NCBI RefSeq assembly: GCF_019059575.1
Contig: NW_024881973.1
Span: 372,001-436,000, forward strand
Direction: 5' to 3'
DNA from: Amphibalanus amphitrite
Lineage: Eukaryota; Arthropoda; Thecostraca; Balanomorpha; Balanidae
Length of the DNA stretch: 64,000 nucleotides
Shown: positions 10,922-52,590 of the stretch, piece after piece
Layout: each line of letters starts with the position of its first letter
Numbering within the stretch: position 1 is the stretch's first letter
Program-made: the position numbers and the translations under genes
Notes under the pieces: model-generated
The model's input: only the letters and a program-made list of their open reading frames with translations
Databases searched by the model: none
What the model was told of the DNA's origin: nothing

Positions 10922-11964
10922 TTAACCCTTGCCCTGGCAGGGCATTTTTCATAACACGGCCTGGCAGGGGGGGGGGTCGATGCGACCCCCCCCCTCGCGA
11001 TTGGCTCCTATGGCACCCAGAAACACCAAATTCGGTAGGTAGGTGGGCCCCCTGGAGTTCTCGCCCCTGTGCAAATTTGGTTGCTCTAGGTCAATATTTA
11101 GGGGGGTTTTGGGGGGTATAAATGTAAAAATTTCGCTAAAAACAGGTCAAAAGTTTTTCGCTTATAACTTTTGATCTAATTAAGATAAAGCAAAAAGAAA
11201 AGCACCAGTGAACTCAGCACGTCAAGGCGCGTCGAATGATATACTTTTTATCTTGCTTAAGTGTACATAAAGTTTTTCTTAAATTTTAAGTAAACTTAAA
11301 TTAATAAATTAAGTTAAAGTTAACCAAATTGCATCATATCGCATATCATTCGATTCGGCTGATCACCAGGAACACAATGGTACCATTTTTAAGCTCTAGC
11401 GTCATTATGTGCCAAGTTATTGGCAAAAACGTCATTTGACCTCAGTTGACCTCATTTGACCTGACCCATGGACAAGTACACCAAACAAAGAAGCACCAAG
11501 TGACCTGCTGTTGAGTACTGTGGTTTCAAAGCACAAAAGTGATAGAAAGAAGCGGATATCTCCAGTATTTTCCGAATTTAGTATTTTCCCATAGGCTTAA
11601 CATTACGACGTAATGACCTCTAACTGACCTCAGGTCAGTGACCTCAAAAAACCCGAACTATATGTTATACAACTCGGTGAACTTAGCACATCCTGAAAGT
11701 TTGAAGGAAATCAGTGCAAAACTGTGAGTTGGACAGGTGCAAAAAGAAATTTGAAATTTGACCATGACCTTGTACCGGTTTTTCTGACCTGGTGACCTGA
11801 CCTAAGGTCACCCGGACCTGAAATTTTCAGGTCATATGTAAAAAGGTTGCCCCATAGGCTGTGCCAAATTTGGCGGCGCTGCGCGCCGCCGTTTTTACGC
11901 TATCTTCGAAAAACCTTAGGGGGGGGTCGCATCGACCCCCCCCCCCTGCCAGGGCGAGGGTTAA
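10922..11964 (+). mobile_element. TTAA element family A, intact reference copy
   Basis: Intact 1043-bp copy with TTAA at 10922-10925 and 11961-11964. The left end has the tag CTGGCAGG twice, 18 bp apart, then a hairpin with GTCGATGCGAC arms. The right end has the matching hairpin GTCGCATCGAC and the tag once before GGGCGAGGG. The interior has an inverted motif pair TCGAATGATATAC (about 11235) and ATATCATTCGA (about 11342) and dense AGGTCA sites. It serves as the empty-site reference: its CTTGCTTAAGTGTAC near 11260 is where B sits in the other A copies. No transposase. Confidence 0.92.
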
Positions 11965-12110
11965 CAATGATGGACAAACATTAATGATAGGTATAGAAAA
12001 GAAAGGAAATGATAAAGAATAGGAGTTGGAGCTAGAGACGTGGAAACGCTACCACGACTCAGCATCTATGAATTACTCACAACCTTAAACTGAACAGATC
12101 TGGTACTCAC
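11965..12110. other. Intron-like spacer
   Basis: Between the A element and the donor of the next exon candidate; nothing else seen. Confidence 0.35.
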
Positions 12111-12222
12111 CGCCTGCTGAGGCTGACAGAATCTCCACTGACAGCGACGTCTGAGATGATGAGCTTGCTGTGGTTGTCCACTTCCGCTGGGCTGTCAACG
12201 TCCAGTAGCTCATCCGGCCACA
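12111..12222 (-). CDS. Candidate exon of unknown gene
   Basis: On the minus strand an acceptor CTCTGCAG is followed by 112 bp open in a protein-like frame (WPDELLDVDSPAEVDNHSK region) and a strong donor GTGAGT. The segment lies upstream of the exon at 8815-8932 but is not in phase with it directly, so at least one exon between them is unaccounted for. Family not recognised. Confidence 0.4.
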
Positions 12223-13350
12223 CTGCAGAGCACTGGCTCACCCTAACAGTCCCACAGCACCCTGGCTGTGGGACACCACAGCCACAGCAGTGGCTCACCC
12301 TCCCCCCCCCCCCACAGCAGCGCACAGACTACGGGAACACCACAGCAGGAATATTTTAAAATCTTGTTTTAACGCCGGCTAAAAAATAGGGGCCGAAATC
12401 GGGGGACTTTTCAGGTTTTTTTTGGGGGGGGATCACCTTGACTGACCGTTCAACCCGACCCTCCTAATCGAAAATCTGTTGCGACGCCACTGCATTCAAA
12501 CAGGATTTTCACAACTCTGCATACATGCAAAGCACCCTCTATGACTTTCACAATAGGTACGACTTGGGTACGACCCTGAACGTAGGCATCGCAATCGGCG
12601 CAAGTTCAAAACAGGGCCCGTATGGCGAAAACAGAAATGAAAACAAAAATAGGTAGGTACAATGCAACTTACCGATAGCTTGAGGAAGTCCAGAATATGT
12701 ATGCAAACACCGAATATAAATGTAAAGGCCTATCGTCGCCCTCACCTACCCTCATCCGAGCGACGCCGAACGCGCGAGCGCACCGGACCAAGCTCCGCGC
12801 CGACTGAGACGCTCATGCGCCAGTTCATGCAGGAAGTGACGTCACAGAGGCCTCTGACTCCACGGAAGGGTGCCAGCAATAGGCCCTATAACAACAGGTT
12901 GGATGGAGTTTTCTACCAGAAATATACTAACATTTCTCACGTTGACCAATGTCAACCTGATATTCATTAAAAATAATTGAGTTTTGATGGATGGTTTGTG
13001 ATTAACTTCGTTTTTTATAGACACAATTCTCATTATAATAAATTTAATTATATTATTCCTCTTTTGGATTCTTAAAAACTAGGATAGCTGAAACAAAGTT
13101 ATAGTTGCAACTAAGTTTGCAAGACAACGTGTTCTATAACAATATTGGTATCATGGTTGCCATGGAGACCTGTTCAGATTCATTGGTTTGTTACGGGGTT
13201 GCTATAGAAACCTGAGTTCATAGAACAGTGCAAGCAAATACCGTTGCCTAGCAACCTCTTCGTCGGTGGCACCTCCGTCGCGCTGGGAGGGAACGCAGGG
13301 TGCCGGCACGCCGGGAGAAGATACCAGAATACCAGAGTCAATAGCGCCGA
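12223..13350. other. Possible promoter and first-exon area of minus-strand gene
   Basis: 12670-12850 is relatively C/G-rich, has a TGACGTCA at about 12838, and a minus-strand donor GTAAGT at 12666-12671. These would fit a promoter and first exon for the exon series to the left, but nothing decides it. The rest shows no coding or repeat signal. Confidence 0.25.
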
Positions 13351-13359
13351 AGCATCTCC

Positions 13360-15495: not shown

Positions 15496-16679
15496 TTAGC
15501 CCGCGCCCTGATGGGGGGGGGCCATTTTGGCCCCCCCTGTGGTTTTTCTGAAATAGCGAGAAAACGGCGGCGCGCAGCGCCGCCAAATTTTGGGTACCTT
15601 ACCGGACATCAATTTGACACCTTCACACAAAATTTCAAGTCACAGGTCACCTCAGGTCAGGAGTTATTGAGGTCAAACTGAGGTCATGTTCGAGTAAAAA
15701 TGAGCAAAAAACATGACATCTTGAAACGCTCACCAATTCTACAGTTCACAAGCAATTTTAAAGTTCTTTATGTGGTTGTGTAGAGAAAAGACGGCGCTAC
15801 AAAACTACTATCTCGGATTTTTGAAATTTTTGGATTTTGACCCCCAAAAATCAAAAAAATTGATTTTTTTAGAAAAACTCAAAAAATTTCCAAAATTTTT
15901 TCGAATTTCGAAAAAACGGAATATATGTGATAGTCCCTGCGCTCTTCGATATACATACCAAATTTTAGATCGATAGCTCTTTTTTTGGCCAAGTTATAGC
16001 GAAAAAACTGTTAAAAATTGATGACGTCAAATTTTTGAACTCAATTTTTAGCAATTCTAGACCTCGTAGCGCAAAACGGAGACCACCATTGAACTCCCCG
16101 TGACGAACTGCATCGAATCGATACCCATTTTATGCAAAAATATCAACTTTGAAATTTGACCTAATTTGACCTGACCTTGACCTGACCTTGACCTGACCTT
16201 GACCAAAACGTGACCTAAGCTGGTCCTAAAGTCTGTCTGACCCACATAATCGCATTTGTCATGTAAAATGGACCATAAAACATGTATCACACGACACTTT
16301 CATATTGTGACCCCCCAGTGACCTGACCTCTGTGACCTGACCTGGTATCAGTGACCTCAAATAGTAAAATATGTGCTTGAAGAACATTTCCCCATCGATG
16401 ATTTTCAATGAAATGCATTTTACACGATTTTACAACGCATTTCTTGAAATGCCTGTAAACGGTGAAAATTCGACCTTTGACCTGACCTGTGACGTCATCG
16501 GTTTGACCGAGGTCAATGAAATTGGGTCACAAGGTAGTTCCCTGTTGGGGCTATCCAACACCGTTTACCGCTTGTCGCTATGTTGCGTGGTTCTCGAGAT
16601 CTGAGGGGGGGGGGCCAAAATGGCCCCCCCCCCCATCAGACCGCGTTGCTCGGCAGACCCCATCTGGGCGCGGGTTAAC
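15496..16679 (+). mobile_element. TTAA element family I
   Basis: The element is bounded by TTAG (mutated) at 15496 and TTAA at 16676. The left end is CCCGCGCCCTGATGG plus a hairpin with GGCCATTTTGGCC arms. The right end has the same hairpin, then the tag twice (ATCAG and ATCTG, about 25 bp apart). The interior has CCGGAATATATGTGATAG (15917), tandem CCTGACCTTGA units at 16165-16200, ACCATAAAACATGTATCAC, and TGACGTCATCGGTTTGACC near the right end. No coding sequence. Confidence 0.9.
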
Positions 16680-20301: not shown

Positions 20302-21312
20302 TTAACCCGCGCACCGACGGGGGGGGCGGATATCCGCCCCCCTGAGGTTTTTCGCGAATAGCGGGAAAACCGCGGCGCGTAGCGCCGCGAACTTTGGTAT
20401 GACTATTCCCTTATCAATTTTACACATGGTGTGCAAGTTTGAACCTCCTACCTTTCAAGGTCAGGTCACCAGGTCACTTTGAATGACCCAACCTCAAGTC
20501 ACTTTTTTGCAACTTTGTCACCGTGCCAGAGCTACAGTAGATGTCGGAGGCCTTTGAAAGTCGCAGGATGTTATTAGGTCATTAGTAGCTACAATTTGTA
20601 TATCTCGGAATTTTGATATCGGTGACCTAAGGTCAGGTCAATTTCGCGACCTCCCCATTATAAGTCAATGGGGGAAAAATCAACTCCCTGTTTTTACCAC
20701 TAAAACGGGTCGGAATGGCCCCATATACCATACATGACTTAATATACGATCAACGTTCACTACCTTGAGGTCTGTTTTGCTGTTGGGCAGCTTTGAGGTC
20801 ATGTGACGTCATCAAAGGTCACCAAAGGTTTTTGGCCAATAACTCCGTACAGGAACAAGATACAGACGCGTGGATGGTCTCATTGTGTTCAGCTCGTCAA
20901 GGCGCATCGAATGATATACATGATGACCTCGAGGTCACGTGACCTGAGGTCAACCTTTGACCTTGACCTTTCGAGGTCAACATATATATCATTCGATGCG
21001 GATTGACGAGAGGATCACGATGATGCCCTTAGTTTGTTCTTATCTTGACTAATTCGAAAGTTATTCGAGAAAAACTCTCTCCATATTTAGCGCCGCCATT
21101 TTGACTTTTTCGACCCCTGTGACGTCATCTTTGACCTGACCTGAAAATGACCTTAGTAAAAATTGTAGATCTTGACCGTGCGTATCCGATGCCGTTTACC
21201 ACTTGTCGCTATCTTGCTTCGTTCTCGAGATCTCAGGGGGGGGGGCGGTCATCCGCCCCCCCCCCCCCGTCGGTACTAAGTTGGCGCAGACCCCCGTCGG
21301 TGCGCGGGTTAA
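20302..21312 (+). mobile_element. TTAA element family D, copy 1
   Basis: TTAA at 20302-20305 and 21309-21312. Left end CCCGCGCACCGACGG with hairpin arms GCGGATATCCGC. Right end hairpin GCGGTCATCCGC, then the tag CGTCGG twice with about 20 bp between. Core motifs: CTAAGGTCAGGTCAATTTCG, CCCATTATAAGTCAATGGG, the inverted pair CATCGAATGATATAC (20904) and ATATATCATTCGATGCG (20982) around a block of AGGTCA sites, then TGACGTCA. No coding sequence. Confidence 0.92.
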
Positions 21313-25430: not shown

Positions 25431-26625
25431 TTAACCCGCGCCCTGCTGGGGGGGGGGGTGTTTGAACACCCCCCCTTGTGGTTTTTCGCGAATATCTCAA
25501 AAACGGCGGCGCGGAGCGCCGCCGTTTCTGGTACACCTTATCATACATCAATTCTACACATGTTGTGAAAATTTCAGACCAAGGTCATTCAAGGTCAGGT
25601 CACCAGGTCACTTGAAGTGACCTCACCTCATAAAAACTTTCAATGTCTGTCATAGCTACACCGAGTGACCGATCGCTTTGAAACTTTCAGCGACTGCTAA
25701 GGGCAATAGCATGTACAAAATGTATATCTCAGAATTTTGATATCGATGACCTAAGGTCAGGTCAATTTTGCGACCTCCCCATTATAAGTCAATGGGAGAA
25801 AATTGAAATGAGCCTCTTTTGGATGAAAGACATTATAAACACTACCAAACACCGAATTACAAGTTTTTTAGACACACTGAACTTGAAAATGGTGTCCGTG
25901 ACCCTTGTTTATGCCCTGAGGTCATCTCAGGTCACGAATGGTATCTAACAGTTTTTCGCAAATAACTTTTGATAGAGGCATTCTAGAGCGATGAAAACGC
26001 CTTAGATGTGTTCAGCTCGACGATACGGATCGACTGATATGCAACATGACCCTTTCCGGTCAGGTCATGACCTTGACCTGAGGTCAAATTTTCAAGTTGA
26101 CCCTTCAAGGTCAAGTTATAGTTCATTCGATGCGTCTTGACGAGAGGAACACGATTGCGGTAAAAGTAAGCTCGTACAAGGCTTGGGTCAAAAGTTATTG
26201 CAGAAAAACTGTTTTCGAAAAAATCGGCTATTTTTGCAGTTTTGCCCCCTGCAGGCAAAACCGTTGACGTTAGGTCAAATCTGAGAGAATTACTCAGAAA
26301 CGGCGTTAATAGGGCTATCGAATGCGCTTTTCCGCGGCGCTGTAGCTCTATTGGTTCCCGAGTTATGCGTTGGCTTCTTGGAAATTTTCGACATTCGACC
26401 TGGAAATCGGCGAAATTTTGCCTTCAATGACCTCTGGTGACCTGACCTTTGCCCTGACCAAAAAATTGACCGAAGTGATTTCGTCATTATTTTTGACGCT
26501 CTTTCGAACGCCGCCTTCCGCGTATCGCTACGTGGCCCAGGAGCCGAGTTAGAAGGGGGGGGTGTTCAAACACCCCCCCCCAGCAGGGCGTGGAAATCCA
26601 GGACCCCCAGCAGGGCGCGGGTTAA
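25431..26625. mobile_element. TTAA element family H
   Basis: TTAA at 25431-25434 and 26622-26625, the latter shared with the next element. Left end CCCGCGCCCTGCTGG with hairpin arms TGTTTGAACA. Right end TGTTCAAACA hairpin, then CAGCAGGGCG twice about 24 bp apart. The core is D-like (CTAAGGTCAGGTCAATTTTG, CCCATTATAAGTCAATGGG, TCATTCGATGCG). Non-coding. Confidence 0.9.
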
Positions 26626-27630
26626 CCCGCGCACCGACGGGGGGGGGCGGATATCCGCCCCCCCCTGAGGTTTTTCGCGGATAGCGGGAAAACCGCGGCG
26701 CGTAGCGCCGCGAAATTTGGTATGACTATTCTCTCATCAATTTTACACATGGTGTGCAAGTTTGAACCTCCTAACTTTTAAGGTCAGGTCACCAGGTCAC
26801 TTTGAATGACCCAACCTCAAGTCACTTTTTTGCAACTTTGTCACCGTGCCAGAGCTACAGTAGATGTCGGAGGCCTTTGAAAGTCGCAGGATGTTATTAG
26901 GTCATTAGTAGCTACAATTTGTATATCTCGGAATTTTGATGTCGGTGACCTAAGGTCAGGTCAATTTCGCGACCTCCCCATTATAAGTCAATGGGGGAAA
27001 AATCAACTCCCTGTTTTTACCACTAAAACGGGTCGGAATGGCCCCATATACCATACATGACTTCACATACGATCAACCATCACTACCTTGAGGTCTGTTT
27101 TGCTGTTGGGCAGCTGTAAGGTCATGTGACGTCATCAAAGGTCACCAAAGGTTTTTTGCCAATAACTCCTTACAGGAACAAGATACAGCCGCGCGGATGG
27201 TCTCATTGTGTTCAGCTCGTCAAGACGCATCGAATGATATACATGATGACCTCGAGGTCACGTGACCTGAGGTCAACCTTTGACCTTGACCTTTCGAGGT
27301 CAACATATATATCATTCGATGCGGATTGACGAGAGGATCACGATGATGCCCTTAGTTTGTTCCTATCTTGACTACTTCGAAAGTTATTCGAGAAAAAACC
27401 CTCTCCATATCTAGCGCCGCCATTTTGACTTTTTAGACCCCTGTGACGTCATCTTTGACCTGACCTGAAAATGACCTTAGTAAAAATTGTAGACCTTGTC
27501 CGTGCGTATCCGATGCCGTTTACCGCTTGTCGCTATCTTGCTTCGTTCTCGAGATCTCAGGGGGGGGCGGTCATCCGCCCCCCCCCGTCGGTACTAAGTT
27601 GGCGCAGACCCCCGTCGGTGCGCGGGTTAA
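26622..27630 (+). mobile_element. TTAA element family D, copy 2
   Basis: Nearly identical by eye to 20302-21312, with the same tag, hairpins and double tag at the right end. It shares its left TTAA with H, so one inserted at the terminal TTAA of the other. Confidence 0.92.
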
Positions 27631-27705: not shown

Positions 27706-28905
27706 TTAACCTTCCAGGCGGTGGGGGGGCATTTTTTTGCCCCCCCCCTTTAGTTTTTTCGATATATCTCGAGAACCGCTGCGCCGATCGTCACCAAACT
27801 TTCAGTACCCTCCCGGGAGCAGCTAGCGCACATGGTGACCAAAATTTTTTTCCAGAGGCTACGATAGGTTGGCCGTTAATGACGTCAGAGTGACGTCATT
27901 TTTGCCATTTTCGACTCAAAAAAAGGTTTCGCGGGAAGAGCTGTCAGGCCTACAGCTTTAGAGATACAGAAAAATACTTTAGGCATAAGAGGTGTGGAAT
28001 CAAAAGGGCTACAAAACTGCTATTTCGGTCTTTCGAATTTTTTGGATTTTGACCCCCAAAAATAAAAAAAATAGATTTTTTGAATATAATAGCCAAAAAA
28101 TCCAAAAAGTTTTTTGAATTTCGAAAAAAAACGGAATATATGTGATAGTTCCTACCGCTTTCTATCTACATACCAAATTTGAGATCGATACCTCTTTTTT
28201 TGGCCAAGTTAGGTATAGCGAAAAAAACTGTTCAAAATTGATGACGTCAAATTTTCAAACTCAATTTTTAGCAATTCTAGACCTCGTAGCGCAAGACAAA
28301 GACCACCATTAGACTCCCCGTGACGAGCTGCATCGAATAGATACCCATTTTATGCAAAAATATCAACTTTGAAATTTGACCTTTTTTGACCTGACCTTGA
28401 CCTGACCTCCACCAGAAAGTGACATAAACCGTACCTGATGGCCTTATAACCAACACCATTGAGTTGGAAATGAAAAACCGGCCATAAAACATGCATCACA
28501 TAACCTTAGTAAAGTTTGGCTATGTGGTGACCCTTGGTGACCTTTGGTGACCTGACCTGTGACCTGACCTGGTATGACCAGTGACCTCTAATAGCAACAT
28601 ATGTACTAGACAACTGACGCCTTATCGCTGATTTTCGACAAAATGCGTTTTACTCGGTGTTATAGCGCTTTCCCTAGAAGCCCCGTGAACGGTGAAACAT
28701 TTTATCTTTGACCTGACCTGTGACGTCATCGGTGACCCCGAGGTCAATGAAATTTGGTTTCCCTCGACAAATTTGACAGGGCTATCGAACGCCGTTTGAA
28801 TTTTCCGGATCCGTCCAGTAGTTTCGGAGATACGGGGGGGGGGCAAAAAAATGCCCCCCCCACCGCGCGGAAGGTGGCTGGTAGGCCCACCGCCTGCCGG
28901 GTTAA
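27706..28905. mobile_element. TTAA element family C
   Basis: TTAA at 27706-27709 and 28902-28905. Left tag CCAGGCGGTGG with a GGGGGGGCA...TGCCCCCCC hairpin. Right hairpin, then CACCGC twice. The core is I-like (CGGAATATATGTGATAG near 28132; TGACGTCATCGG near 28722; AGGTCAATGAAATTTGG). The right TTAA is shared with the A element that follows. Confidence 0.88.
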
Positions 28906-30975
28906 CCCTCGCCCTGGCAGGGCATTTTTCATAACACGGCCTGGCAGGGGGGGGTCGATGCGACCCCCCCCCCTCGCGATTGGCTCCTATGGCACCTAGA
29001 AACACCAAATTTGGTAGGTAGGTGGGCCCCCTGGAGTTCTCGCCCCTGTGCAAATTTGGTTGCTCTAGGTCAATATTTAGGGGGGTTTTGGGGGGTATAA
29101 ATGTAAAAATTTCGCTAAAAAGAGGTCAAAAGTTTTTCGCTGAAAAGTTTTGATCTAATTAAGATAGAGCAAAAACAAAAGCACCAGTGAACTCAGCACG
29201 TCAAAGCGCGTCGAATGATATACTTTTTAGCTTGCTTAACCCTCGCCGGACCTATTGGTTTTCTACATACGCGCCGGCCGAGGGGGGGGGGGGGCGGGTA
29301 CGACCCCCCCTCGCCGTTTCGCCCCTGGTGGAGCTAGCGCGTCGCAGAAAAAACGAGCGTGTGCGCCGTTACGAGACGCAGAGATTGGTACCCGATTTTA
29401 AGGTCCTAGGTCAACCGGCGACCTCTGAGGTCAGGTCAAGTGCCCAAGGTACGGTTCAGTTTTTGGTGAATAACTTCGCAAAAAACGGCCGCAGAGCGCC
29501 GATTTTGGCAGCATCGTGTTCGTCTCGCTCAGGCGCGTCGAATGATATACTTTTTGTCCGGGTCAGGTCAACTTGGGGTGTTGACCTCAGGTCAAGGTCA
29601 GGTCAGCACCCCCAGGTCACGAAGTTGGTCGAAAGGGGTCATGTCGCATATCATTCGATTCGGCAGGTCTTCCTGAGTCCATTGGTGGCTTTCCCGACTC
29701 GCTAGCTCAATTTGATCAAGAGTTATTGACGAAAAACTAATATGACCTTGATGACGTCATAAATGACGTCACGCAAGGTCAACATTGCAAAAGTGACGCA
29801 TCTAACCTTGCAAGGAGTGCATCAAATCACGATTCTGTGTGCTTGAGATAGTTGGAGATCGTTCCCGGCGCCAGAATAGCAGTTTGGATTTTTCCCCATA
29901 GACTTATAATGGTGAGGTCACGAAAATGACCTGACCTCATATGACCTTTAGGAAAAATCCGAGATATACAAGTTGTGGGACTCATAATGGATACTAGATC
30001 CTGCAAGTTTCATTTCCCTGTGACATCTCCTCTGGCAGTGAGGGCGTTGCGAAGTTGCGACATCTGAAGACCGTGCAGAGGTTCACTTATGACGTCATAG
30101 GTCAGTGACCTGACCTGACCCAAAAATGCGGTTGGTGTCAAAAGATCCGGCTTGGATCAAAGGTCAGGTATGCCAAGTTTCAGCTCTCTATCGCCAGCGT
30201 GTTCGGAGCTATCGTGAAAAAACCCTATGGGGGGGGCGGCACCCGCCCCCCCCCCTCGGCCGGCGAGGGTTAAGTGTACTTACAGTTTTTCTTAAATTTT
30301 AAGTAAACTTAAACTAATAAATTAAGTTAAAGTTAACCAAATTGCATCATATCGCATATCATTCGATTTGGCTAATCAGCAGGAACACAATGATACCATG
30401 TTTTAAGCTCTAGCGTCATTATGTGCCAAGTTATTGGCAAAAACGTCATTTGACCTCAGTTGACCTCATTTGACCTGACCCATCGATAAGTACACCAAAC
30501 AAAGAAGCACCAAGTGACCTGCTGTTAAGTGCTGTGGTTTTAAAGCACAAAAGTGATAGAACGAAGCGGATATCTCCAGTATTTTCCGAATTTAGTATTT
30601 TCCCATAGGCTTAACACTACGACGTAATGACCTCTAACTGACCTCAGGTCAGTGACCTCAAAAAACCCGAAATATATGTTATACAACTCGGTGAACTTAG
30701 CACATCCTGAAAGTTTGAAGGAAATCAGTGCAAAACTGTGAGTTGGATAGGTGCAAAAAGAAAATTGAAATTTGACCATGACCTTGTACCGGTTTTTCTG
30801 AACTGGTGACCTGACCCAAGGTCACCGGAACCTGAAATTCTTAGGTCATATGTAAAAAGGTTGCCCCATAGGCTGTGCCAAATTTGGCGGCGCTGCGCGC
30901 CGCCGTTTTTACGCTATCTTCGAAAAACCTTAGGGGGGGTCGCATCGACCCCCCCCCTGCCAGGGCGAGGGTTAA
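28902..30975 (+). mobile_element. TTAA element family A, copy with B inside (left part of composite 1)
   Basis: A ends at 28902 and 30972-30975, split by B at 29236-30273. The undisturbed site (CTTGCTTAAGTGTAC) is seen in the A copy at 10922, so B's TTAA duplication is shown directly. The left edge of this A is also the left edge of the duplicated composite described under findings. Confidence 0.92.
29236..30273 (+). mobile_element. TTAA element family B, copy 1
   Basis: TTAA at both ends. Left tag CGCCGG twice about 22 bp apart, long G-run hairpin with CGGGTACG. Right hairpin CGGCACCCG, tag once (CTCGGCCGGCGAGGG). Core: inverted pair TCGAATGATATAC (29543) and ATATCATTCGATTCGG (29649), TGACGTCAT twice near 29752-29771, GACTTATAATGG. 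No coding sequence. Confidence 0.92.
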
Positions 30976-31664: not shown

Positions 31665-32859
31665 TTAACCCGCGCCCAGATGGGGTCTGCCGAGCAACGC
31701 GGTCTGATGGGGGGCCATTTTGGCCCCCCCCCCCTCAGATCTCGAGAACCACGCAACATAGCGACAAGCGGTAAACGGTGTTGGATAGCCCCAATGGGGA
31801 ACTACCTTGTGACCCAATTTCATTGACCTCAGTCAAACCAATGACGTCACAGGTCAGGTCAAAGGTCGAATTTTCACCGTTTACAGGCATATCAAGAAAT
31901 GCGTTGTAAAATCGAATAAAATGCATTTCATTGAAAATCATCGATGGGGAAATGTTCTTCAAACACATATTTTGCTATTTGAGGTCACTGATACCAGGTC
32001 AGGTCACAGAGGTCAGGTCACTGGGGGGGGGGGGGTCACAATATGAAAGTGTCGTATAATAAATGTTTTATGGTCCATTTTACATGACATATGCGATTAT
32101 GTGGGTCAGACAGACTTAAGGGCCAGCTTAGGTCACGTTTTGGTCAAGGTCAGGTCAAGGTCAGGTCAAGGTCAGGTCAAGGTCAGGTCAAATTAGGAAA
32201 AATTTAAAGTTGATATTTTTGCATAAAATGGGTATCGATTCGATGCAGCTCGTCACGGGGAGTTCAATGAAGGTCTCCGTTTTGCGCTACGAGGTCTAGA
32301 ATTGCTAAAAATTGAGTTCAAAAATTTGACGTCATCAATTTGTAACAGTTTTTTCACTATAACTTGGCCAAAAAAAGAGGTATCGATCTAAAATTTGGTA
32401 TGTATATCGAAGAGCGCAGGGACTATCACATATATTCCGGTTTTTTCGAAATTCGAAAAATTTTTGGAAAATTTTTGAGTTTTTCTAAAAAAATCAATTT
32501 TTTTGATTTTTGGGGGTCAAAATCCCAAAATTTCGAAAATCCGAGATAGCAGTTTTGTAGCGCCGTCTTTTCTCTACACAACCACATAAAGAACTTTAAA
32601 ATTGCTTGTTAACTGTAGAATTGGTGAGCGTTTCAAGATGTCATGTTTTTTGCTCATTTTTGCTCGAACATGACCTCAGTTTGACCTCAATAACTCCTGA
32701 CCTGAGGTGACCTGTGACTTGAAATTTTGTGTGAAGGTGTCAAATTGATGCCCGGTAAGGTACCCAAAATTTGGCGGCGCTGCGCGCCGCCGTTTTCTCG
32801 CTATTTAAGAAAAACCACAGGGGGGGCCAAAATGGCCCCCCCATCAGGGCGCGGGTTAA
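31665..32859 (-). mobile_element. TTAA element family I (right part of composite 1)
   Basis: Reverse orientation to 15496-16679. TTAA at 31665-31668 and 32856-32859. The double-tag end is at the left. CTATTTAAGAAAAACC near 32800 is the empty site for J in the second composite. The tandem AGGTCA array at 32145-32195 carries four GGTCAGGTCAA units. Confidence 0.92.
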
Positions 32860-34601: not shown

Positions 34602-34932
34602 TTAACCCTCGCCCTGGCAGGGCATTTTTCATAACACGGCCTGGCAGGGGGGGGTCGATGTGGCCCCCCCTCGCGATTGGCTCCTATGGCATCTAGAAAC
34701 ACCAAATTTAGTAGGTAGGTGGGCCTTCTAGAGTTCTCGCCCCTGTGCAAATTTGGTTGCTCTAGGTCAATATTTAGGGGGGTTTTGGGGGGTATAAATG
34801 TAAAAATTTCGCTAAAAAGAGGTCAAAAGTTTTTCGCTGAAAAGTTTTGATCTAATTAAGATAGAGCAAAAACAAAAGCACCAGTGAACTCAGCACGTCA
34901 AAGCGCGTCGAATGATATACTTTTTAGCTTGC

Positions 34933-35974
34933 TTAACCCTCGCCGGACCTATTGGTTTTCTACATACGCGCCGGCCGAGGGGGGGGGGGCGGGTACGACC
35001 CCCCCCCCTCGCCGTTTCGCCCCTGGTGGAGCTAGCGCGTCGCAGAAAAAACGAGCGTGTGCGCCGTTACGAGACGCAGAGATTGGTACCCGATTTTAAG
35101 GTCCTAGGTCAACCGGCGACCTCTGAGGTCAGGTCAAGTGCCCAAGGTACGGTTCAGTTTTTGGTGAATAACTTCGCAAAAAACGGCCGCAGAGCGCCGA
35201 TTTTGGCAGCATCGTGTTCGTCTCGCTCAGGCGCGTCGAATGATATACTTTTTGTCCGGGTCAGGTCAACTTGGGGTGTTGACCTCAGGTCAAGGTCAGG
35301 TCAGCACCCCCAGGTCACGAAGTTGGTCGAAAGAGGTCATGTCGCATATCATTCGATTCGGCAGGTCTTCCTGAGTCCATTGGTGGCTTTCCCGACTCGC
35401 TAGCTCAATTTGATCAAGAGTTATTGACGAAAAACTAATATGACCTTGATGACGTCATAAATGACGTCACGCAAGGTCAACATTGCAAAAGTGACGCATC
35501 TAACCTTGCAAGGAGTGCATCAAATCACGATTCTGTGTGCTTGAGATAGTTGGAGATCGTTCCCGGCGCCAGAATAGCAGTTTGGATTTTTCCCCATAGA
35601 CTTATAATGGTGAGGTCACGAAAATGACCTGACCTCATATGACCTTTAGGAAAAATCCGAGATATACAAGTTGTGGGACTCATAATGGATACTAGATCCT
35701 GCAAGTTTCATTTCCCTGTGACATCTCCTCTGGCAGTGAGGGCGTTGCGAAGTTGCGACATCTGAAGACCGTGCAGAGGTTCACTTATGACGTCATAGGT
35801 CAGTGACCTGACCTGACCCAAAAATGCGGTTGGTGTCAAAAGATCCGGCTTGGATCAAAGGTCAGGTATGCCAAGTTTCAGCTCTCTATCGCCAGCGTGT
35901 TCGGAGCTATCGTGAAAAAAACCTATGGGGGGGCGGCACCCGCCCCCCCCCCCCCCTCGGCCGGCGAGGGTTAA
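34933..35974 (+). mobile_element. TTAA element family B, copy 2
   Basis: Same site and sequence as 29236-30273; hairpin G/C runs differ in length by a few bases. Confidence 0.92.
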
Positions 35975-36103
35975 GTGTACTTACAGTTTTTCTTAAATTT
36001 TAAGTAAACTTAAACTAATAAATTAAGTTAAAGTTAACCAAATTGCATCATATCGCATATCATTCGATTTGGCTAATCAGCAGGAACACAATGATACCAT
36101 GTT

Positions 36104-37099
36104 TTAACCCTATTCCTGGCGGGGGGGGGGGGGCCTCAGGAGCCCCCCCTGAGGTTTTTTGGTTATATCTCCCAAACGCGTTGAGCTAGGAAGCTCAAAT
36201 TTTCTGACTTTTCCTAAAAGGCTTCTACGCAACAGGTCTGAAAATTTTGAGTTGATCTGACCTCAGGTCAGGTCACCAGAGGCGGTTTGGTGACCCTACC
36301 TCAGAAAAGTTTGCAATCACGCCAGAGCTAGAGTTTTTGACCGATCAATTTCTTCTCTTCAGGGTTTAGTTAGGGTACCAGTATGTGCAATTTGTATATC
36401 TCGGAATTTTGATATCGGTGACCTAAGGTCAGGTCAATTTCGCGACCTCCCCATTATAAGTCAATGGGGGAAAAATCAACTCCCTGTTTTTACCACTAAA
36501 ACGGGTCGGAATGGCCCCATATACCATACATGACTTCATATACGATCAACCTTCACTACCTTGAGGTCTGTTTTGCTGTTGGGCAGCTGTGAGGTCATGT
36601 GACGTCATCAAAGGTCACCAAAGGTTTTTGGCCAATAACTCCGTACAGGAACAAGATACAGACGCCTGGATGGTCTCATTGTGTTCAGCTCATCAAGACG
36701 CATCGAATGATATACATGATGACCTCGAGGTCACGTGACCTGAGGTCAACCTTTGACCTTGACCTTTCGAGGTCAACATATATATCATTCGATGCGGATT
36801 GACGAGAGGATCACGATGATGCCCTTAGTTTGTTCCTATCTTGACTAATTCGAAAGTTATTCGAGAAAAACTCTCTCCATATCTAGTGCCGCCATTTTGA
36901 CTTTTTCGACCCCTGTGACGTCATCTATGACCTGACCTGAAAATGACCTTAGTAAAAATTGTAGATCTTGGCCGTGCGTATCCGATGCCGTTTACCGCTT
37001 GTCGCTATCTTGCTTCGTTCTCGAGATCTCAGGGGGGGGCCGAATCGGCCCCCCCCGCCAGTTTCTTGTCCCGGCGGAGCCCGCCAGGAATAGGGTTAA
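36104..37099 (+). mobile_element. TTAA element family E (D core with different ends)
   Basis: TTAA at 36104-36107 and 37096-37099. Left end CCCTATTCCTGGCGG with a GCCTCAGGAGCC hairpin; right hairpin GGCCGAATCGGCC, then CGCCAG twice. From about 36395 to 37030 it is nearly identical to family D, while the termini and the first 290 bp differ. This suggests end exchange. It is absent from the first composite. Confidence 0.9.
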
Positions 37100-37669
37100 G
37101 CTCTAGCGTCATTATGTGCCAAGTTATTGGCAAAAACGTCATTTGACCTCAGTTGACCTCATTTGACCTGACCCATCGATAAGTACACCAAACAAAGAAG
37201 CACCAAGTGACCTGCTGTTAAGTGCTGTGGTTTTAAAGCACAAAAGTGATAGAACGAAGCGGATATCTCCAGTATTTTCCGAATTTAGTATTTTCCCATA
37301 GGCTTAACACTACGACGTAATGACCTCTAACTGACCTCAGGTCAGTGACCTCAAAAAACCCGAAATATATGTTATACAACTCGGTGAACTTAGCACATCC
37401 TGAAAGTTTGAAGGAAATCAGTGCAAAACTGTGAGTTGGATAGGTGCAAAAAGAAAATTGAAATTTGACCATGACCTTGTACCGGTTTTTCTGAACTGGT
37501 GACCTGACCCAAGGTCACCGGAACCTGAAATTCTTAGGTCATATGTAAAAAGGTTGCCCCATAGGCTGTGCCAAATTTGGCGGCGCTGCGCGCCGCCGTT
37601 TTTACGCTATCTTCGAAAAACCTTAGGGGGGGTCGCATCGACCCCCCCCCCTGCCAGGGCGAGGGTTAA

Positions 37670-38358: not shown

Positions 38359-39762
38359 TTAACCCGCGCCCAGATGGGGTCTGCCGAGCAACGCGGTCTG
38401 ATGGGGGGCCATTTTGGCCCCCCCCCCCTCAGATCTCGAGAACCACGCAACATAGCGACAAGCGGTAAACGGTGTTGGATAGCCCCAATGGGGAACTACC
38501 TTGTGACCCAATTTCATTGACCTCAGTCAAACCAATGACGTCACAGGTCAGGTCAAAGGTCGAATTTTCACCGTTTACAGGCATATCAAGAAATGCGTTG
38601 TAAAATCGAGTAAAATGCATTTCATTGAAAATCATCGATGGGGAAATGTTCTTCAAACACATATTTTGCTATTTGAGGTCACTGATACCAGGTCAGGTCA
38701 CAGAGGTCAGGTCACTGGGGGGGGGGGGGGTCACAATATGAAAGTGTCGTTTCGTATAATAAATGTTTTATGGTCCATTTTACATGACATATGCGATTAT
38801 GTGGGTCAGACAGACTTAAGGGCCATCTTAGATCACGTTTTGGTCAAGGTCAGGTCAAGGTCAGGTCAAGGTCAGGTCAAGGTCAGGTCAAATTAGGAAA
38901 AATTTAAAGTTGATATTTTTGCATAAAATGGGTATCGATTCGATGCAGCTCGTCACGGGGAGTTCAATGGTGGTCTCCGTTTTGCGCTACGAGATCTAGA
39001 ATTGCTAAAAATTGAGTTCAAAAATTTGACGTCATCAATTTGTAACAGTTTTTTCACTATAACTTGGCCAAAAAAAGAGGTATCGATCTGAAATTTGGTA
39101 TGTATATCGAAGAGCGCAGGGACTATCGCATATTTTTCGTTTTTTAAAAATTTGAAAAAAATGGATTTTTTTTAGTTTTTCTAAAAAAAGTCATTTTTTA
39201 TTTTTGGGGTCCAAAGTCCCAAAATTTCGAAAATCCGAGATAGCAGTTTTGTAGCGCCGTCTTTTCTCTACACAACCACATAAAGAACTTTAAAATTGCT
39301 TGTTAACTGTAGAATTGGTGAGCGTTTCAAGATGTCATGTTTTTTGTTCATTTTTACTCGAACATGACCTCAGTTTGACCTCAATAACTCCTGAACTGAG
39401 GTGACCTGTTACTTGAAATTTTGTGTGAAGGTGTCAAATTGATGCCTGGTAAGGTACCCAAAATTTGGCAGCGCTGCGCGCCGCCGTTTTCTCGCTATTT
39501 AACCCTATTAGTGGCAGGCTCCTGGCTACCCCATATTAGTGGCAGGGGGGGGGGGCTGTTTACGACCCCCCCCCCCTTGATATCTCGAGATCTAACCGGC
39601 CGATTTTCAAAATTCAAACGGCATTCGATTTGGCTCAACGTAATCTACATTTCTAAAGAAAAATAAAATTAAAAATGTCAAAAGGGGGGTAGAGGGGGCA
39701 AAAAAGGGCAAATTGCAGATACATTTTAGACTGTTTATCACGGCCAGGTTTCTGAACCAATC

Positions 39763-40943
39763 TTAACCCGCGCCCTGATGGGGGGGGGCCATTTTGGCCC
39801 CCCCTGTGGTTTTTCTTAAATAGCGAGAAAACGGCGGCGCGCAGCGGCGCCAAATTTTGGGTACCTTACCGGGCATCAATTTGACACCTTCACACAAAAT
39901 TTCAAGTCACAGGTCACCTCAGGTCAGGAGTTATTGAGGTCAAACTGAGGTCATGTTCGAGCAAAAATGAGCAAAAAACATGACATCTTGAAACGCTCAC
40001 CAATTCTACAGTTAACAAGCAATTTTAAAGTTCTTTATGTGGTTGTGTAGAGAAAAGACGGCGCTACAAAACTGCTATCTCGGATTTTCGAAATTTTGGG
40101 ATTTTGACCCCCAAAAATCAAAAAAATTGATTTTTTTAGAAAAACTCAAAAAATTTCCAAAAAATTTTCGAATTTCGAAAAAACCGGAATATATGTGATA
40201 GTCCCTGCGCTCTTCGATATACATACCAAATTTTAGATCGATACCTCTTTTTTTGGCCAAGTTATAGGGAAAAAACTGTTAAAAATTGATGACGTCAAAT
40301 TTTTTAACTCAATTTTTAGCAGTTCTAGACCTCGTAGCGCAAAACGGAGACCACCATTGAACTCCCCGTGACGAGCTGCATCGAATCGATACCCATTTTA
40401 TGCAAAAATATCAACTTTGAAATTTGACCTAATTTGACCTGACCTTGACCTGACCTTGACCTGACCTTGACCAAAACGTGACCTAAGCTGGCCCTAAAGT
40501 CTGTCTGACCCACATAATCGCATTTGTCATGTAAAATGGACCATAAAACATGTATCACACGACACTTTCATATTGTGACCCCCCCAGTGACCTGACCTCT
40601 GCGACCTGACCTGGTATCAGTGACCTCAAATAGCAAAATATGTGTTTGAAGAACATTTCTCCATCGATGATTTTCAATGAAATGCATTTTACTCGATTTT
40701 ACAACGCATTTCTTGAAATGCCTGTAAATGGTGAAAATTCGACCTTTGACCTGACCTGTGACGTCATCGGTTTGACCGAGGTCAATGAAATTGGGTCACA
40801 AGGTAGTTCCCCGCTGGGGCTATCCAACACCGTTTACCGCTTGTCGCTATGTTGCGTGGTTCTCGAGATCTGAGGGGGGGGCCAAAATGGCCCCCCCCCA
40901 TCAGACCGCGTTGCTCGGCAGACCCCATCTGGGCGCGGGTTAA
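39763..40943 (+). mobile_element. TTAA element family I inside J
   Basis: Complete I copy, same orientation as 15496-16679 and opposite to the I that contains J. Hairpin, double tag, AGGTCA array and TGACGTCA block are all present. Confidence 0.92.
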
Positions 40944-41018
40944 CGCAACTTTTGCCGATCGATAGAGAATGAACCAGGAATTCACATGGATCCTAAAAAT
41001 ATGCATTTTCAAAAATCA

Positions 41019-41240
41019 TAGGCGGATACAGATCATTGAGATTGGGGGTACACAAAAAGTATAGTAAATAAGGTTTTTGTTGGTACTGTTTCTAAAAAGG
41101 TTGGTAATGGTCTTGTTATGTTACAATTTTCTTATGAGAGAACGACTAAAATTGTATTGGTCATGCATAGGCGGTGTCAGGGCACCTATGTTGGGAGGTA
41201 AAAAATAACCCCCCTTTTTGGACGCCTGGATCCGCCTATT
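41019..41240. mobile_element. Short MITE with ATAGGCGGAT ends
   Basis: ATAGGCGGATACAG at the left and GGATCCGCCTATTAT at the right form imperfect inverted ends about 220 bp apart; a related AGGGGCGGATCTAGG is at 50167. Superfamily not determined. Confidence 0.45.
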
Positions 41241-41625
41241 ATAGCAAAAACATGTCAAAAGAGGATGCACAATAACATTGTATATGTTATCACATGATAA
41301 CTTTCATTCACTGTTCGTAAAACTGGTGCAGCATCGTGATCTTCGCCCAAATGACTCGCTTCACGAATAGGACCCCCCAATTCCCAGTGCTCTGGAGCCG
41401 CCCCTGGTAAAGTTATGAACTTGAAATTTTCAGGGAATGTGCCCAATTTAGTTTTAGGAAAAGTCAGAAAATTTCAGCATCGTAGCTTCAGCGGTTTCGG
41501 AGATATTCCCGAAAAACCTGAGGGGTGGATAAAAACAACCCCCCCCCTGCCACTAATAGGGTTAAGAAAAACCACAGGGGGGGCCAAAATGCCCCCCCCC
41601 CCCCCCCATCAGGGCGCGGGTTTAA

Positions 41626-46149: not shown

Positions 46150-47324
46150 CCCGCGCCCCACTGGGGGGGCTATTTATAGCCCCCCCTCCCGTTTTTCTGC
46201 AATAACTTCCAAACCGCTTGACGGATCGACGCCAAAGTTTCAGTACCTTCGGCTGCATCAATTTGACACCTTGTGTCAAAATTTGAACTTCATAGCTACC
46301 ATACGTCGGCCGGAAATGACGTCAGAGTGACGTCATGTTCGTCCGATTTCGACGCAAAACATTGAACCACGGCAATCGCTCCCAAGAGCTCAGTTTTTAA
46401 GCTAGATCCAATTTCTTTGCATGAAAGGACTCAGAATTGACCGCACTATCAAACTGCTATCTCGGATTTTCAAAATTTTGAAAATTTCGAAAATTTTATA
46501 TAATAATATTCAAAATTTATATTTTTTCATTTTTTTCAAAAAGTTTTTGACTTTTCGAAAAAAACCGGAATATATGTGACAGAACGCATGATTATGACTA
46601 ACTCTAGCAAGTTTTAGCTAAATATCTTCAAAAATGGCCAAGTTATACGCATTATTACAAAAAATTCACAATTATTAATTTTTCAAATCAATTTTTAGTA
46701 CGTATTTGACATCGTACACCAATATAAATGGCACCATCGTGTTCCTGAGCTCAAACTGCATCTAATAGACACCTTTTTGTTGAAAAATTTTAACTTCAAA
46801 ATTTGACCTTTTTGGACCTGAAAGTGACCTGACCTAAGCTAAATTCGACTCAAAATGACCTCGAATGACACAGACGACATCAAATTCGAAATCTATGGCC
46901 TAAATGGACCATAAAACATGTGTCACGTGACCGACGCATGATATAATATTTTCGTGACCTGTGATGACCTGACCCTGACCTGAAAATCAAAGTACAAGTT
47001 TGGTACCCTCAAGGTATCTAGAGCATCTGTTCACGAGTGTGGAAACCAAAAATGAGCCTAATCTGACTTGTAAGCCGGCGGCCAGAGCCCAAAATGTGAA
47101 CAAGCCAAAGTGCTAATAATTCTTACTTTGACCTGACCTCTGACGTCATCGGTGACCTCGAGGTCAATTAAATTAGGTTTCGCTCGACAGTTTTTCCGGG
47201 GCTATCAGACGCCGTTTGAATTTTGACGATCGGCCTAGTAGTTTCGGAGTTAGGAGGGGGGGCTATGAATAGCCCCCCCCCAGTAGGGCGTGTTATACAC
47301 AGACCCCAGTGGGGCGCGGGTTAA
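46146..47324 (+). mobile_element. TTAA element family L, copy 2
   Basis: Complete L copy directly following copy 1 in the same direction with a shared TTAA. Core: CCGGAATATATGTGACAG, TGGACCATAAAACATGTGTC, TGACGTCATCGGTGACC near the right end. Non-coding. Confidence 0.92.
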
Positions 47325-48486
47325 CCCGCGCCCCGTAGGGGGGGCCGAAACGGCCCCCCCTGTCCTTTTCGGTCGATATCTCCTAAACGGCTGGAGATAT
47401 CGCCACCAAACTTTCAGGACCCCTCCGGGCATCAATTTTACACATTGTGACCAAAAAATTTTCCAGAGGCTATGATAGGTTGGCCACAAATGACGTCAGA
47501 GTGACGTCATGTTCTGTCATTTTCGACCGAAAAAAGACCTTCGCGAGAAGACCTGTCAGGACTACAGCTTTGAAGATACAGAAAAATGATCAAGACATAA
47601 AAGGTGTAGAATTGACAGGGCTACAAAACTGCTATCTCGAATTTTTGAAATGTTTGAGTTTTGACCCCAAAAATCAAAAAAGCATTTTTTTGGATATATT
47701 CGCTAAAAAATCCAAAAAGTTTGAGTTTCAAAAAAACCGGAATATATGTGATAGTGCCTACCGTCTTCTATCTACATACCAAATTTCAGATCGATACCTC
47801 GTTTTTTGGCCAAGTTATAGCGAAAAAACTGTTCAAAAATGATGACGTCAAATTTTCAAACTCAATTTTTGGCAATTCTAGAACTCGTAGAGCAAAACGA
47901 AGACCACCATTAGACTCCCCGTGACGAGCTGCATCGAATCGATACCCATTTTATGCAAAAATATCAACTTTGAAATTTGACCTAATTTGACCTGACCTTG
48001 ACCTGACCTTCACAAAAACGTGACCTAGGCTGGCCCCAAAGGCTGCCTAACCCACATAATCGCATTTGTCATGTAAAATGGACCATAAAACATGTATCAC
48101 ACGACACATTCATATTGTGACCCCCGGTGACCTGACCTCGCTGTGACCTGACCTGGTATCAGTGACCTCAGATAGCAAAGTATGTGTTTGACGAACAATG
48201 TACCATCGATGGTTTTCAATAAATTACCAATTTACTCGCTTTCACAGCACATTTCTTGAATTGCCTGTGAACGGTGAAAATCTGACCTTCGACCTGACCT
48301 GTGACGTCATCGGTTTGACCTAGGTCAATGAAATTTGGTCACAAGGTAGTTCCCGGGTGGGGCTATCGAACGCCGTTTGAATTTTGAAAATCGGCCGGTA
48401 ACTTTCCGAGATCTTAGGGGGGGCCGATACGGCCCCCCCCCTACGGGTGGTAGGGTCCGCCGGTAGCCCTACGGGGCGCGGGTTAA
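47321..48486 (+). mobile_element. TTAA element family M
   Basis: Shares TTAA 47321-47324 with L. Left end CCCGCGCCCCGTAGGG with CCGAAACGG hairpin; right hairpin CCGATACGG and the CTACGGG tag twice. The core is close to I (GCATCGAATCGATACCC, CCTGACCTTGACC, TGACGTCATCGGTTTGACC). Confidence 0.92.
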
Positions 48487-49911: not shown

Positions 49912-49969
49912 TGCTCCGTCTCCGTCTTTACTGTGTGGGCAAACACACTCCACTGGGTGGGCAAAAATC

Positions 49970-50165
49970 TTTACTGGGATCATATCACATGTTTGAACGC
50001 TTGAAACCACGAAAAACTGCAAACGCGCGGCTAATGCGAGCCGACATACGCCAAATCGCGATTCCGGCCAAACATGGTCTCGAAAAGTAAGTTAGAGGTC
50101 AAAGGTCATTTGGGTCAGGGTCATAAAATTTCAAGGCTAGGTGTAAAATTGATCAACGCGAGGCA
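49970..50165 (+). mobile_element. Family T fragment
   Basis: CATGTTTGAACGCTTGAAACC through GTGTAAAATTGATCAACGCG matches 62538-62715 of element T. Confidence 0.7.
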
Positions 50166-50199
50166 GGGGCGGATCTAGGATTTCGATAGGGTGGGGGCA

Positions 50200-51417
50200 G
50201 TCAAGCACAGGGGCGGCACATTTTCCGCCTACGGGGGCGGCATTCATAGGGTCTGTTCCAGTCCAGCGGAAAAAAAACGAGCTTGACGGCCGTCACGAGA
50301 CGCAGCGATTGATATTCAAATTTAGGGTCTCAGGTCAACTGGTGACCTCTGGTCAGGTAACTTACCCTTAAGTCGGGTTTTTGTTTTTGGCAAATAATTT
50401 TGCAAACAAATGGCCACAGAGCAAAATTTAGGCATAATCGTATTCCTCTCAAGCTGCGTCGAATGTTGTGGGTACTTTTTGTTCGATAAAGGTCACAATC
50501 AATCAAGATTGACACAAAGGTCGTCAGGTCAAGCCCCCTCAGGAGTCTCAGGACACTGTTCGGACTAGGTCAGGTTGCATATCAATCGATTTGGAAGCTC
50601 ATTGCAATCACAATGGTGCCTTTCCCGACTCTAGCTTAATTTGGTCGAAAGTTATTAACGAAAAACGATTATGACCCAAAAGAACGTCCTCTGTGACGTT
50701 CTCTGTGACGTCAAAAAAGTAAAAAATGCCAAAATAAGGCACGGAATCCTTTGACGAGCGTATGAAAACACATTTCTATGCGTCTTCGGGCGGATTCTAG
50801 AATACCTATATGTTGCAAAAAGAGCAAGTTCAGTATTTCACCCATAGGTTTATAATGGGAGAGGTCACGTGACTGATCTGAACCAAGATGAATTGTACGA
50901 AAAACCCAAGATATACGAAGTATGAGTACCCGGGAGCTCGTTACTTTCTGAAAATGTCATCATTCTCGCCGACACTTTGCCTGGCGTTGGCGGCGTTGCG
51001 AAGCTGCGACATTTTTTGACAGTGCAGACTGCAGAGGTTTACTTATAACCTTTAGAGGTTTATGCATCGGTCAGTGACCTGACCATAGGTGGAGAGTTGT
51101 GCTGAACTGTGGGTGCACGAACTCTCCCAATTCCACGCCGGCTTGGCTTTGAAGCCGCAACAGACTGTGGAGGTCAAGGTCACCGCTAGGGCGGCGGCGG
51201 ATTTGCTGCGCCCGAGCACCCACCGTTCGGCACAATTATCCACCTATGGACCTGAACTAACTTGAAAATGAATCAGGTGTCATAAGGTCTGGTTTGGATG
51301 GGGGCTCACGTAGGCCAAGTTTCCGCTGTCTATCGAAGGAAAACGGCTCCGGAGCAGTCACGAAAAAAAATCGTAAGGGGTGCAACTTCCCCTCCTCCCT
51401 CGGCCCGCGAGGGTTAA
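50200..51417 (+). mobile_element. Degenerate family B copy, with a MITE inside
   Basis: Order of motifs as in B (GTCACGAGACGCAGCGATTG, AGGTCAACTGGTGACCTC, ATAGGTTTATAATGGG, right end CTCGGCCCGCGAGGG and TTAA at 51414). It is mutated throughout and carries the fold-back MITE at 51083-51249. Confidence 0.65.
51083..51249. mobile_element. Fold-back MITE of 167 bp
   Basis: Ends CCATAGGTGG and CCACCTATGG; the arms continue imperfectly (GTTGTGC-GAAC-GTGGGTGC). ACCTGA occurs on both sides as a likely target duplication, and the B copies lack this insert. Superfamily uncertain. Confidence 0.7.
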
Positions 51418-52590
51418 CCAACGCCACGCTGGGGGGGGGCAGAATCTGCCCCCCTACCGTTTTTCGCCAATAACTTCTAAACGCGTTACGCCAGCGACGT
51501 CAAACTTTCAGTACCTTATCATACATCAATTTGACACGTTCCCTGAAAATTGGAGCGAAATCCGTCGGAAAATTTTTGAGAAATTGACGTTTTAGTGACG
51601 TCATGTTCGCCATTTTCGCCTCAAAAACGGCAAAATTTCAAACGCCGCTAACTTCTTCATTTTTAAAGGAATCAAGACGTAACAAAAAAGGTTAAACGTG
51701 ATTCTACTTTGTCTATCAAATGGCTATCTCGGTTTTTTGAAACTTTTGGATTTTGGCCAAAAATTTTAAAAAAACTGACTTTTTTGGGAAAATATTTATA
51801 AAATCCAATATTTTGAGTTAATCGAAAAAACCGGAATATATGTCAAAGAAGTGGTCTATGTGCACATACATACCAATTTTGAGAAGAATCGGTTCAAAAA
51901 TGTGGGAGTTATTCAAAATTTTATGACGTCACCACACACAAATTTTTAGAAAAATGATTTTTTTGGAAGTTCTAGACCTCGTACGGAAACAAAAATAGCA
52001 TCATTCGATTCGCCGTGAAAAACTGCATCAGATAGACACCTTTTTAGGCCTTAACAACCAACTTCAAAATTTGACCCCACTTGACCTGACCTTGACCTGA
52101 CCTCGACCTGAAATTCATCCAGAGGTGGTCCATATCACTTATTGAGTGTGCCTATTGAATTCCAAGAGTAAAATGACCCATAAAACATGTGTCGCACATG
52201 CCCTTTTCTATATTTTGTTTTTGGTGACCTGACCTGACCTGACCTGACCTTGACCTTGACCTTTGAATGACATTGTGTGCAACGAATATTGTCTTGGTAG
52301 TCTAAGAACACGTTTTGGGCAATCAGTCTCAGTCCATTCTTCGGCAACTACGGTGCAAGGCCGATACTGTAGAAACTTGCATTTTGTACCCTTGACCTGA
52401 CCTTGACCTGACCTCTGACCTACTTAAGCAAAAAAATTTGGGCTCTTAAGATCCGCCTTGTTGAGAGCTTTCGAGTGCCGTTTTCCCCGTCTTTCTACGA
52501 CCATCGGTTCGGAAGTTAGACAAGGGGGCAGAATCTGCCCCCCCCCAGCAGGGCGCGTATGGCTGAATAGCCCAGCGGGGCGCGGGTTAA
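51414..52590 (+). mobile_element. TTAA element family N
   Basis: TTAA at 51414-51417 (shared with the B relic) and 52587-52590. Left CCAACGCCACGCTGG with GCAGAATCTGC hairpin; right GCAGAATCTGC hairpin, CAGCAGGGCG and CCAGCGGGGCG double tag. Core with CCGGAATATATGTCA, ATAAAACATGTGTCGC and repeated CCTGA at 52226-52252. Confidence 0.9.

Follow-up and report, generated by a model that had tools for sequence, protein, structure and literature searches.

TTAA-inserted elements with unequal, family-specific ends in a barnacle genome and their relationship to T. ni-type piggyBac

Elements in the window and their insertion sites

The DNA described here, referred to as the window, is a stretch of 64,000 nucleotides from the barnacle Amphibalanus amphitrite (contig NW_024881973.1, or C476, positions 372001-436000; assembly GCF_019059575.1, 807.55 Mb in 2644 contigs). 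One transposase of this assembly matches an A. amphitrite protein at 100% identity across 98% of its length. The window contains 23 complete TTAA-type elements that form 15 families (O, A, I, D, F, H, G, E, M, P, L, K, N, Q and RS). In every family, the ends are built in the same way. TTAA is followed by a tip of 13-14 bp, which is of the CCC type and finishes with the family tag, and then by a G-run, a core and a C-run. An earlier, sequence-only reading had proposed at least fifteen families on one plan, and the fifteen counted here, with the features that it listed, bear this out. Each element has one short and one long end, and its strand is given from the short end to the long end.

Element O (142..1339, -) has its long end to the left and its short end to the right. 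It is followed by a truncated family A copy (1340..1930, +) with a long end near 1859-1930. Elements A1 (10922..11964, -), I1 (15496..16678, +) and D1 (20302..21312, +) come next. Four neighbouring pairs have a single TTAA in common: F1 (25431..26625, +) and D2 (26622..27630, +) at 26622, H1 (27706..28905, +) and A2 (28902..30975, -) at 28902, L1 (45279..46149, +) and L2 (46146..47324, +) at 46146, and L2 and K1 (47321..48486, +) at 47321. This arrangement would fit insertion directly beside elements already present, whether of the same or of a different family. Other elements are nested. A2 is interrupted by G1 (29236..30273, -), and A3 (34602..37669, -) is interrupted by both G2 (34933..35974, -) and E1 (36104..37099, +). 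I3 (38359..41625, -) is interrupted by M1 (39499..41565, -), which in turn holds I4 (39763..40943, +). The remaining elements are I2 (31665..32859, -), P1 (44504..45101, -), N1 (51414..52590, +), Q1 (61929..62820, -) and RS (62985..63924, -); Q1 lies outside the span of the sequence-only reading (10922..52590). The two end units of RS, at 63030 and 63879, were considered as two families, R and S. This division is rejected, as the coding element T1, described below, carries both as the ends of one element.

Exact TTAA is present on both sides of 18 of the 22 elements scored, a set that comprises all but RS. One base of the TTAA is changed on one side of O (TTAT/TTAA), I1 (TTAG/TTAA) and Q1 (TTAA/TGAA), and the right end of I3 reads TTTAA. 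RS has TTAT on both sides and has perhaps inserted into a non-TTAA site. Comparison of filled and empty sites confirms insertion at TTAA for E1, G1, G2 and M1. The empty site of E1 (30363-30446) has 0/84 mismatches, and that of G1 and G2, at 11217-11300 in A1, has 4/84. For M1, the empty sites are other I copies, the best with 6/84 mismatches. An empty counterpart was also looked for in the case of I4 in M1, and none was found. The segment 28902-32859 is duplicated at 34602-39499, where the second duplicate holds an additional E element and the nested M/I insertion. E1 has no counterpart in the first duplicate, which therefore provides its clean empty site.

Short and long ends and their agreement

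The two ends of an element are not equal. In the short end, the palindrome formed by the G-run, core and C-run lies 13-14 bp from the tip. In the long end, a spacer separates the tip from a repeat of the tag; the palindrome lies beside this repeat, at 39-42 bp. The resulting offset is 26-28 bp in 14/14 families, RS being left out; T1 and RS have the same layout. The sequence-only reading had given both ends the same plan and missed this asymmetry, which is the strongest clue to the identity of the elements. The tips CCC(G/T)CG are common to the families, with exceptions at one end in H (CCT) and N (CCA). The piggyBac tip is CC[C/T].

The cores are palindromic well beyond chance. Among 24 cores (the 15 window families and nine from fetched loci or listings), 72/96 outer base pairs are complementary, compared with a shuffled mean of 29 and a maximum of 46 (0/2000 shuffles). 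The palindrome is perfect over the outer four pairs in only 8/24 cores.

The two ends of a family agree in tag, core and tip. For the 14 families other than RS, the mean distance between the tag of the short end and the proximal tag of the long end is 0.57 edits, compared with 3.37 when families are shuffled, and no shuffle is as low (0/20000). The cores of the two ends differ by 2.07 edits, compared with 5.69 (0/20000), and the tips of matched ends likewise agree better than in any shuffle (0/20000). Controls are flat, both for tag against core (8821/20000) and for spacer against core (10572/20000). A similar pattern is present on contig C1, where 24 short/long pairs were made by position alone among the 45 long and 80 short ends listed. 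Tip bases 8-13 are identical in 20/24 of these pairs and within one edit in 24/24; the proximal tag is identical in 18/24 and within one edit in 22/24. The sequence-only reading had claimed that tags and arms agree between ends. This stands as a general statement, with four exceptions. In E, the cores of the two ends are unlike (CCTCAGGAG and CCGATTCGG), and both copies read have mismatched cores. In M and G, the two ends agree only partly. In RS, the tags are GCCTA and CGACCA, and the cores in its coding relative T1 are TTGTATCAA and TTGTTACGA. As E and T1/RS are mismatched, a perfect match between ends is not essential.

The relation of tag to palindrome is many-to-one. The palindrome TGTTTGAACA occurs with the tags CCTGCT and CGGGCC, and CCATTTTGG occurs with three tags, CTGAT, CCGTT and the CTGGT of the coding element T3. 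The tag CTGGT also occurs with the palindrome CTATTTTTTG. Two tag/palindrome pairs were searched for in the whole genome. The D tag with the D core is present at 2149 ends and the I tag with the I core at 425, and swaps between them number 0 and 0. Since the ends counted come from related copies, these figures speak for stable linkage and not for independent events.

Genome-wide, the short-end pattern has 11705 + 12011 matches (about 23,700), and its reversal has 0 + 1. Neither 14-bp tips (families A, G, Q and RS) nor tips that deviate from CCC(G/T)CG fit the pattern, and the true count should therefore be higher. If each of the 23,700 elements measures roughly 1.1 kb, together they occupy an estimated 26 Mb (3% of the assembly). 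For the long-end pattern, there are 12537 forward matches and 44194 reverse matches, the latter counting single sites several times, and its reversal has 1 + 3. The pattern of short end plus core has 8783 + 26347 matches, of which the reverse figure counts one site several times, and its reversal has 0 + 0.

Coding relatives and the origin of the small elements

Three groups of coding piggyBac elements, T1, T2 and T3, are bounded by short and long ends of the same plan. The sequence-only reading had envisaged coding relatives with a piggyBac DDD transposase, and these three groups supply them. All three contain a PF13843 transposase that is closest to Trichoplusia ni (T. ni) piggyBac (PDB 6x67), with lower scores against piggyBat (PDB 9c0f). 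Residues D316, D400 and D499 of T3 are invariant in T1-T3 and in an 18-row alignment, and from their position we take them to be the catalytic triad. The C-terminal Cys/His zinc-domain pattern of T. ni piggyBac is also invariant in T1-T3. T1 and T3 align to 6x67 through the zinc domain, and the structure model of T3 aligns to residue 665. Identity in the T3 structure alignments is 27-30%, and T1-T3 are distant from T. ni piggyBac in sequence. The transposases are homologous to that of T. ni piggyBac. The T1 copies of C44 (L044:3-1799, -) and C1173 differ in their C-terminal sequence, beginning ahead of the zinc domain, as might result from a frameshift at that point in the C44 copy.

Two small elements are internal-deletion derivatives of coding ones. 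An I-type element in L043 corresponds to the first 1010 bp (88.6%) and last 128 bp (90.8%) of T2, and derives from a T2-like element. The window element RS corresponds to the first 390 bp (94.7%) and last 320 bp (88.8%) of T1, and derives from a T1-like element. I1, I2 and I4 match the 5' side of T2 at 83-90%, and I1 is a T2-like non-autonomous copy. H1 and K1 match parts of the 5' side of T2 at 76% and 84%.

Families with different ends may share an interior. The interiors of D and E are 92-100% identical per 50-column window, and their ends are unlike. On the long-end side this identity extends as far as the G-run, and on the other side it stops about 300 bp before the short end. The simplest reading is that a D-type element converted the interior of an E-type one and that one boundary of the conversion fell in the G-run; an exchange of both ends would need two events. 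In I, H and K, the middle is partly shared, more weakly than in D and E. No shared middle is seen in the other pairs compared (such as F/I, F/N and A/Q), and the claim of the sequence-only reading that middles are shared between families with different ends thus applies clearly to D/E, weakly to I/H/K and not to these pairs. Tandem TGACCT/AGGTCA units are abundant in many element interiors (for example 16157-16216, 28377-28571 and 52072-52262). These units resemble nuclear-receptor half-sites.

Most of the other piggyBac loci examined have different ends. Among the best PF13843 loci, 20 were fetched (L009-L028). In 12/20, the bounding ends have no G-run palindromes, and 8/20 have no resolved pair of ends, among them L025, which has a T-type frame with one stop. 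The intact piggyBacs first examined mostly have other tips (CCCATTAG and similar). A 2681-bp element with CCCATTAGTGCCC ends and an intact piggyBac of 604 amino acids is present at L020:3563-6243 and L021:3590-6270. It is closer to piggyBat than to T. ni piggyBac, has many identical-scoring copies and looks young. In L020, it was a candidate for the cognate transposase of the G-run element that surrounds it. It is nested instead, since it carries CCCATTAGTGCCC ends of its own and is found again in L021, as the same 2681-bp element, with no such surround. G-run units are also present upstream of piggyBac frames at C72, C387, C18 and C1459, either as their own ends or as neighbouring small elements. 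The unit upstream of the C387 frame is a long-type end (L037 near 1218, -) with the tag CAGTGGAA and the core CGGATGTCG, its own or a neighbour's. At C171, no end is seen in the 351-base stretch examined.

The window also contains retroelement frames. A long interspersed nuclear element (LINE)-type reverse transcriptase frame lies at 3579-4730 (+). Gypsy-type frames at 54458-60297 comprise an aspartyl protease, an integrase and two baculovirus F protein-like (env-like) frames. A Pao-like frame at 60469-61928 (-) contains an integrase zinc domain and a weak peptidase match. A tRNA scan of the window gives none, and an NCBIfam search gives no match.

Interpretation and comparison with known systems

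The identity of the elements as T. ni-type piggyBac is largely settled. The fuller reading is that the window elements are non-autonomous members of many sister T. ni-type piggyBac families in the barnacle, with ends read as described below; its probability is about 0.8. In the piggyBac transpososome, the first 16 bp are the binding site of the transposase core, and the internal palindrome is bound, as double-stranded DNA, by two C-terminal zinc domains that form a dimer (PMC7351741). The suggestion of the sequence-only reading that the ends are recognition sites fits this structure. Its "hairpins" are, by analogy with piggyBac, better read as palindromic binding sites in double-stranded DNA. 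In the barnacle, the transposase core would read the tip and tag, and the zinc-domain dimer would read the palindrome of G-run, core and C-run. The assembly would pair one short and one long end, cut at TTAA and reinsert at TTAA, with the unequal pair giving the asymmetric assembly that piggyBac uses. The small elements would be bound and mobilised in trans, the other families would have partners of the same kind, and families would not cross-react. Divergence would have changed tag and palindrome at both ends and kept the geometry, and interiors would sometimes have been exchanged, once right up to the G-run.

Several observations weigh against this reading. E, RS and T1 itself have mismatched ends and have nevertheless multiplied. 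Only RS and I, among the 15 window families, have a close coding relative; F1 matches the 3' side of T3 at 67%, which is distant. Coding partners were read for RS and I only, and among the T-type frames the ends were read for T1-T3, not for C778, C552, C1010, C698 and C412. The central part of RS, about 245 bp, has no match in T1. The zinc domain of T2 gives no significant phmmer alignment with T. ni piggyBac (second stretch, i-E-value 1.1e+03), and no Pfam zinc family matches T1-T3. In these three proteins, no link is seen between zinc-domain similarity and palindrome, as T3 and T2, with the same palindrome, are 47% similar and T3 and T1, with different palindromes, are 46% similar. No recognition code is visible with three proteins.

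A second account, rather doubtful as a whole, is that ends match by joint copying, that all families depend for their movement on a single T-type transposase or a small number of them, and that tags record drift or history without orthogonality. Any clonally copied inverted-repeat element has matched ends, and the families have tips, runs and offset in common. The many-to-one relation of tag to palindrome, the multiplication of mismatched E and RS, and the small number of coding copies (67 scored matches to T3, many partial) beside very many small elements are also consistent with it. However, drift alone is expected to make left and right ends diverge independently, whereas tag and core agree between ends far beyond shuffles, and D and E have a common interior but differ at both ends. 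The claim of the sequence-only reading that specificities are "kept distinct" is nonetheless not established, given that clonal copying predicts matched ends, that the tag-palindrome relation is many-to-one and that E and RS are mismatched.

The remaining alternatives question what the ends are. The units of G-run, core and C-run could work in a folded state, as a hairpin, a cruciform or a G-quadruplex, as long perfect runs around a palindromic core might suggest. This is unlikely, as the cores are often imperfect and the equivalent piggyBac palindrome is bound as double-stranded DNA (PMC7351741). It is very unlikely that the elements belong to another TTAA superfamily, Sola3 for instance, with coincidental piggyBac insertions nearby. 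The other tips of most intact piggyBacs first examined, the fetched loci without G-run palindromes and the nested piggyBac of L020 would fit such an account. It is contradicted for RS and I, which carry both terminal stretches of T1 and T2, respectively, elements that, like T3, are bounded by ends of the plan; room for it would be left only in families that lack a coding partner. The G- and C-runs are simple sequence, but low-complexity noise is refuted by the near absence of the reversed pattern genome-wide (0 + 1 against 11705 + 12011; 0 + 0 for short end plus core) and by the exact empty sites.

Beyond the reading as sister T. ni-type families, a further proposal is tentative, at somewhat less than even odds. 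The genome may hold around two dozen distinct end-codes, each made of a core-read tag and a zinc-dimer-read palindrome on one fixed geometry and changing at both ends. With interiors traded by recombination at the G- and C-runs, these would form a natural orthogonal series. Very few elements underlie the structural knowledge of how piggyBac ends are read and why they are asymmetric; the relatives with a solved structure that were found number two, a moth and a bat transposase. With many end variants on a single geometry, and coding partners for some, one can ask which residues are responsible for the tag and which for the palindrome. The series also bears on cross-reaction between close families and on how a new specificity arises at both ends at once, and transposon tools might gain piggyBac pairs that do not cross-react.

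The closest known system is T. ni piggyBac (PDB 6x67 and 6x68). In common with it, the barnacle elements have a TTAA target, a CCC tip, short and long ends, a repeated tip motif, an internal palindrome, a DDD transposase and a C-terminal Cys/His zinc pattern. The offset in T. ni is 28 bp. In its inverted terminal repeats, as given in the available text of PMC4625184, the palindrome of one end is set back by a further 28 bp, and two copies of the tip motif AAAGATAATCAT are spaced 27 bp apart. Unlike T. ni piggyBac, the barnacle has many families in one genome that vary tag and palindrome on one geometry, its palindromes lie between G- and C-runs, and its copies are mostly non-coding, with a length of about 1 kb. 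The piggyBat element of Myotis lucifugus (PDB 9c0f) also belongs to the piggyBac superfamily and has asymmetric ends with palindromes bound by zinc domains, but it differs in the fold of its zinc domain and lacks a palindrome at the right end (PMC11707139, available text). T1-T3 are not of the piggyBat type and are nearer to T. ni piggyBac.

The coral CMITE group (PMC2872659) consists of TTAA miniature inverted-repeat transposable elements (MITEs) that are tied to piggyBac, have unlike terminal repeats and a conserved interior, and occur several in a row. They differ from the barnacle elements in being about 100 bp long, with six families and about 1600 estimated copies. Their arrays are ascribed to replication slippage, and neither a short/long asymmetry nor a G-run palindrome is described in the available text of PMC2872659. 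Their trait of an interior more conserved than the terminal repeats is clear in D/E, partial in I/H/K and absent from F/I, F/N and A/Q. An A. amphitrite piggyBac survey (PMC10813416), which has organism and superfamily in common with the elements described here, lists five families and, in its available text, excludes MITEs by design. The barnacle group is absent among the top-ranked titles of the literature search, which is weak evidence of absence. The geometry is thus already known from T. ni piggyBac, and unlike ends with shared interiors are known from the coral CMITEs (PMC2872659). What appears to be new, within the scope of those titles, is a large series of end variants on the T. ni geometry in one genome, some of them with coding partners.

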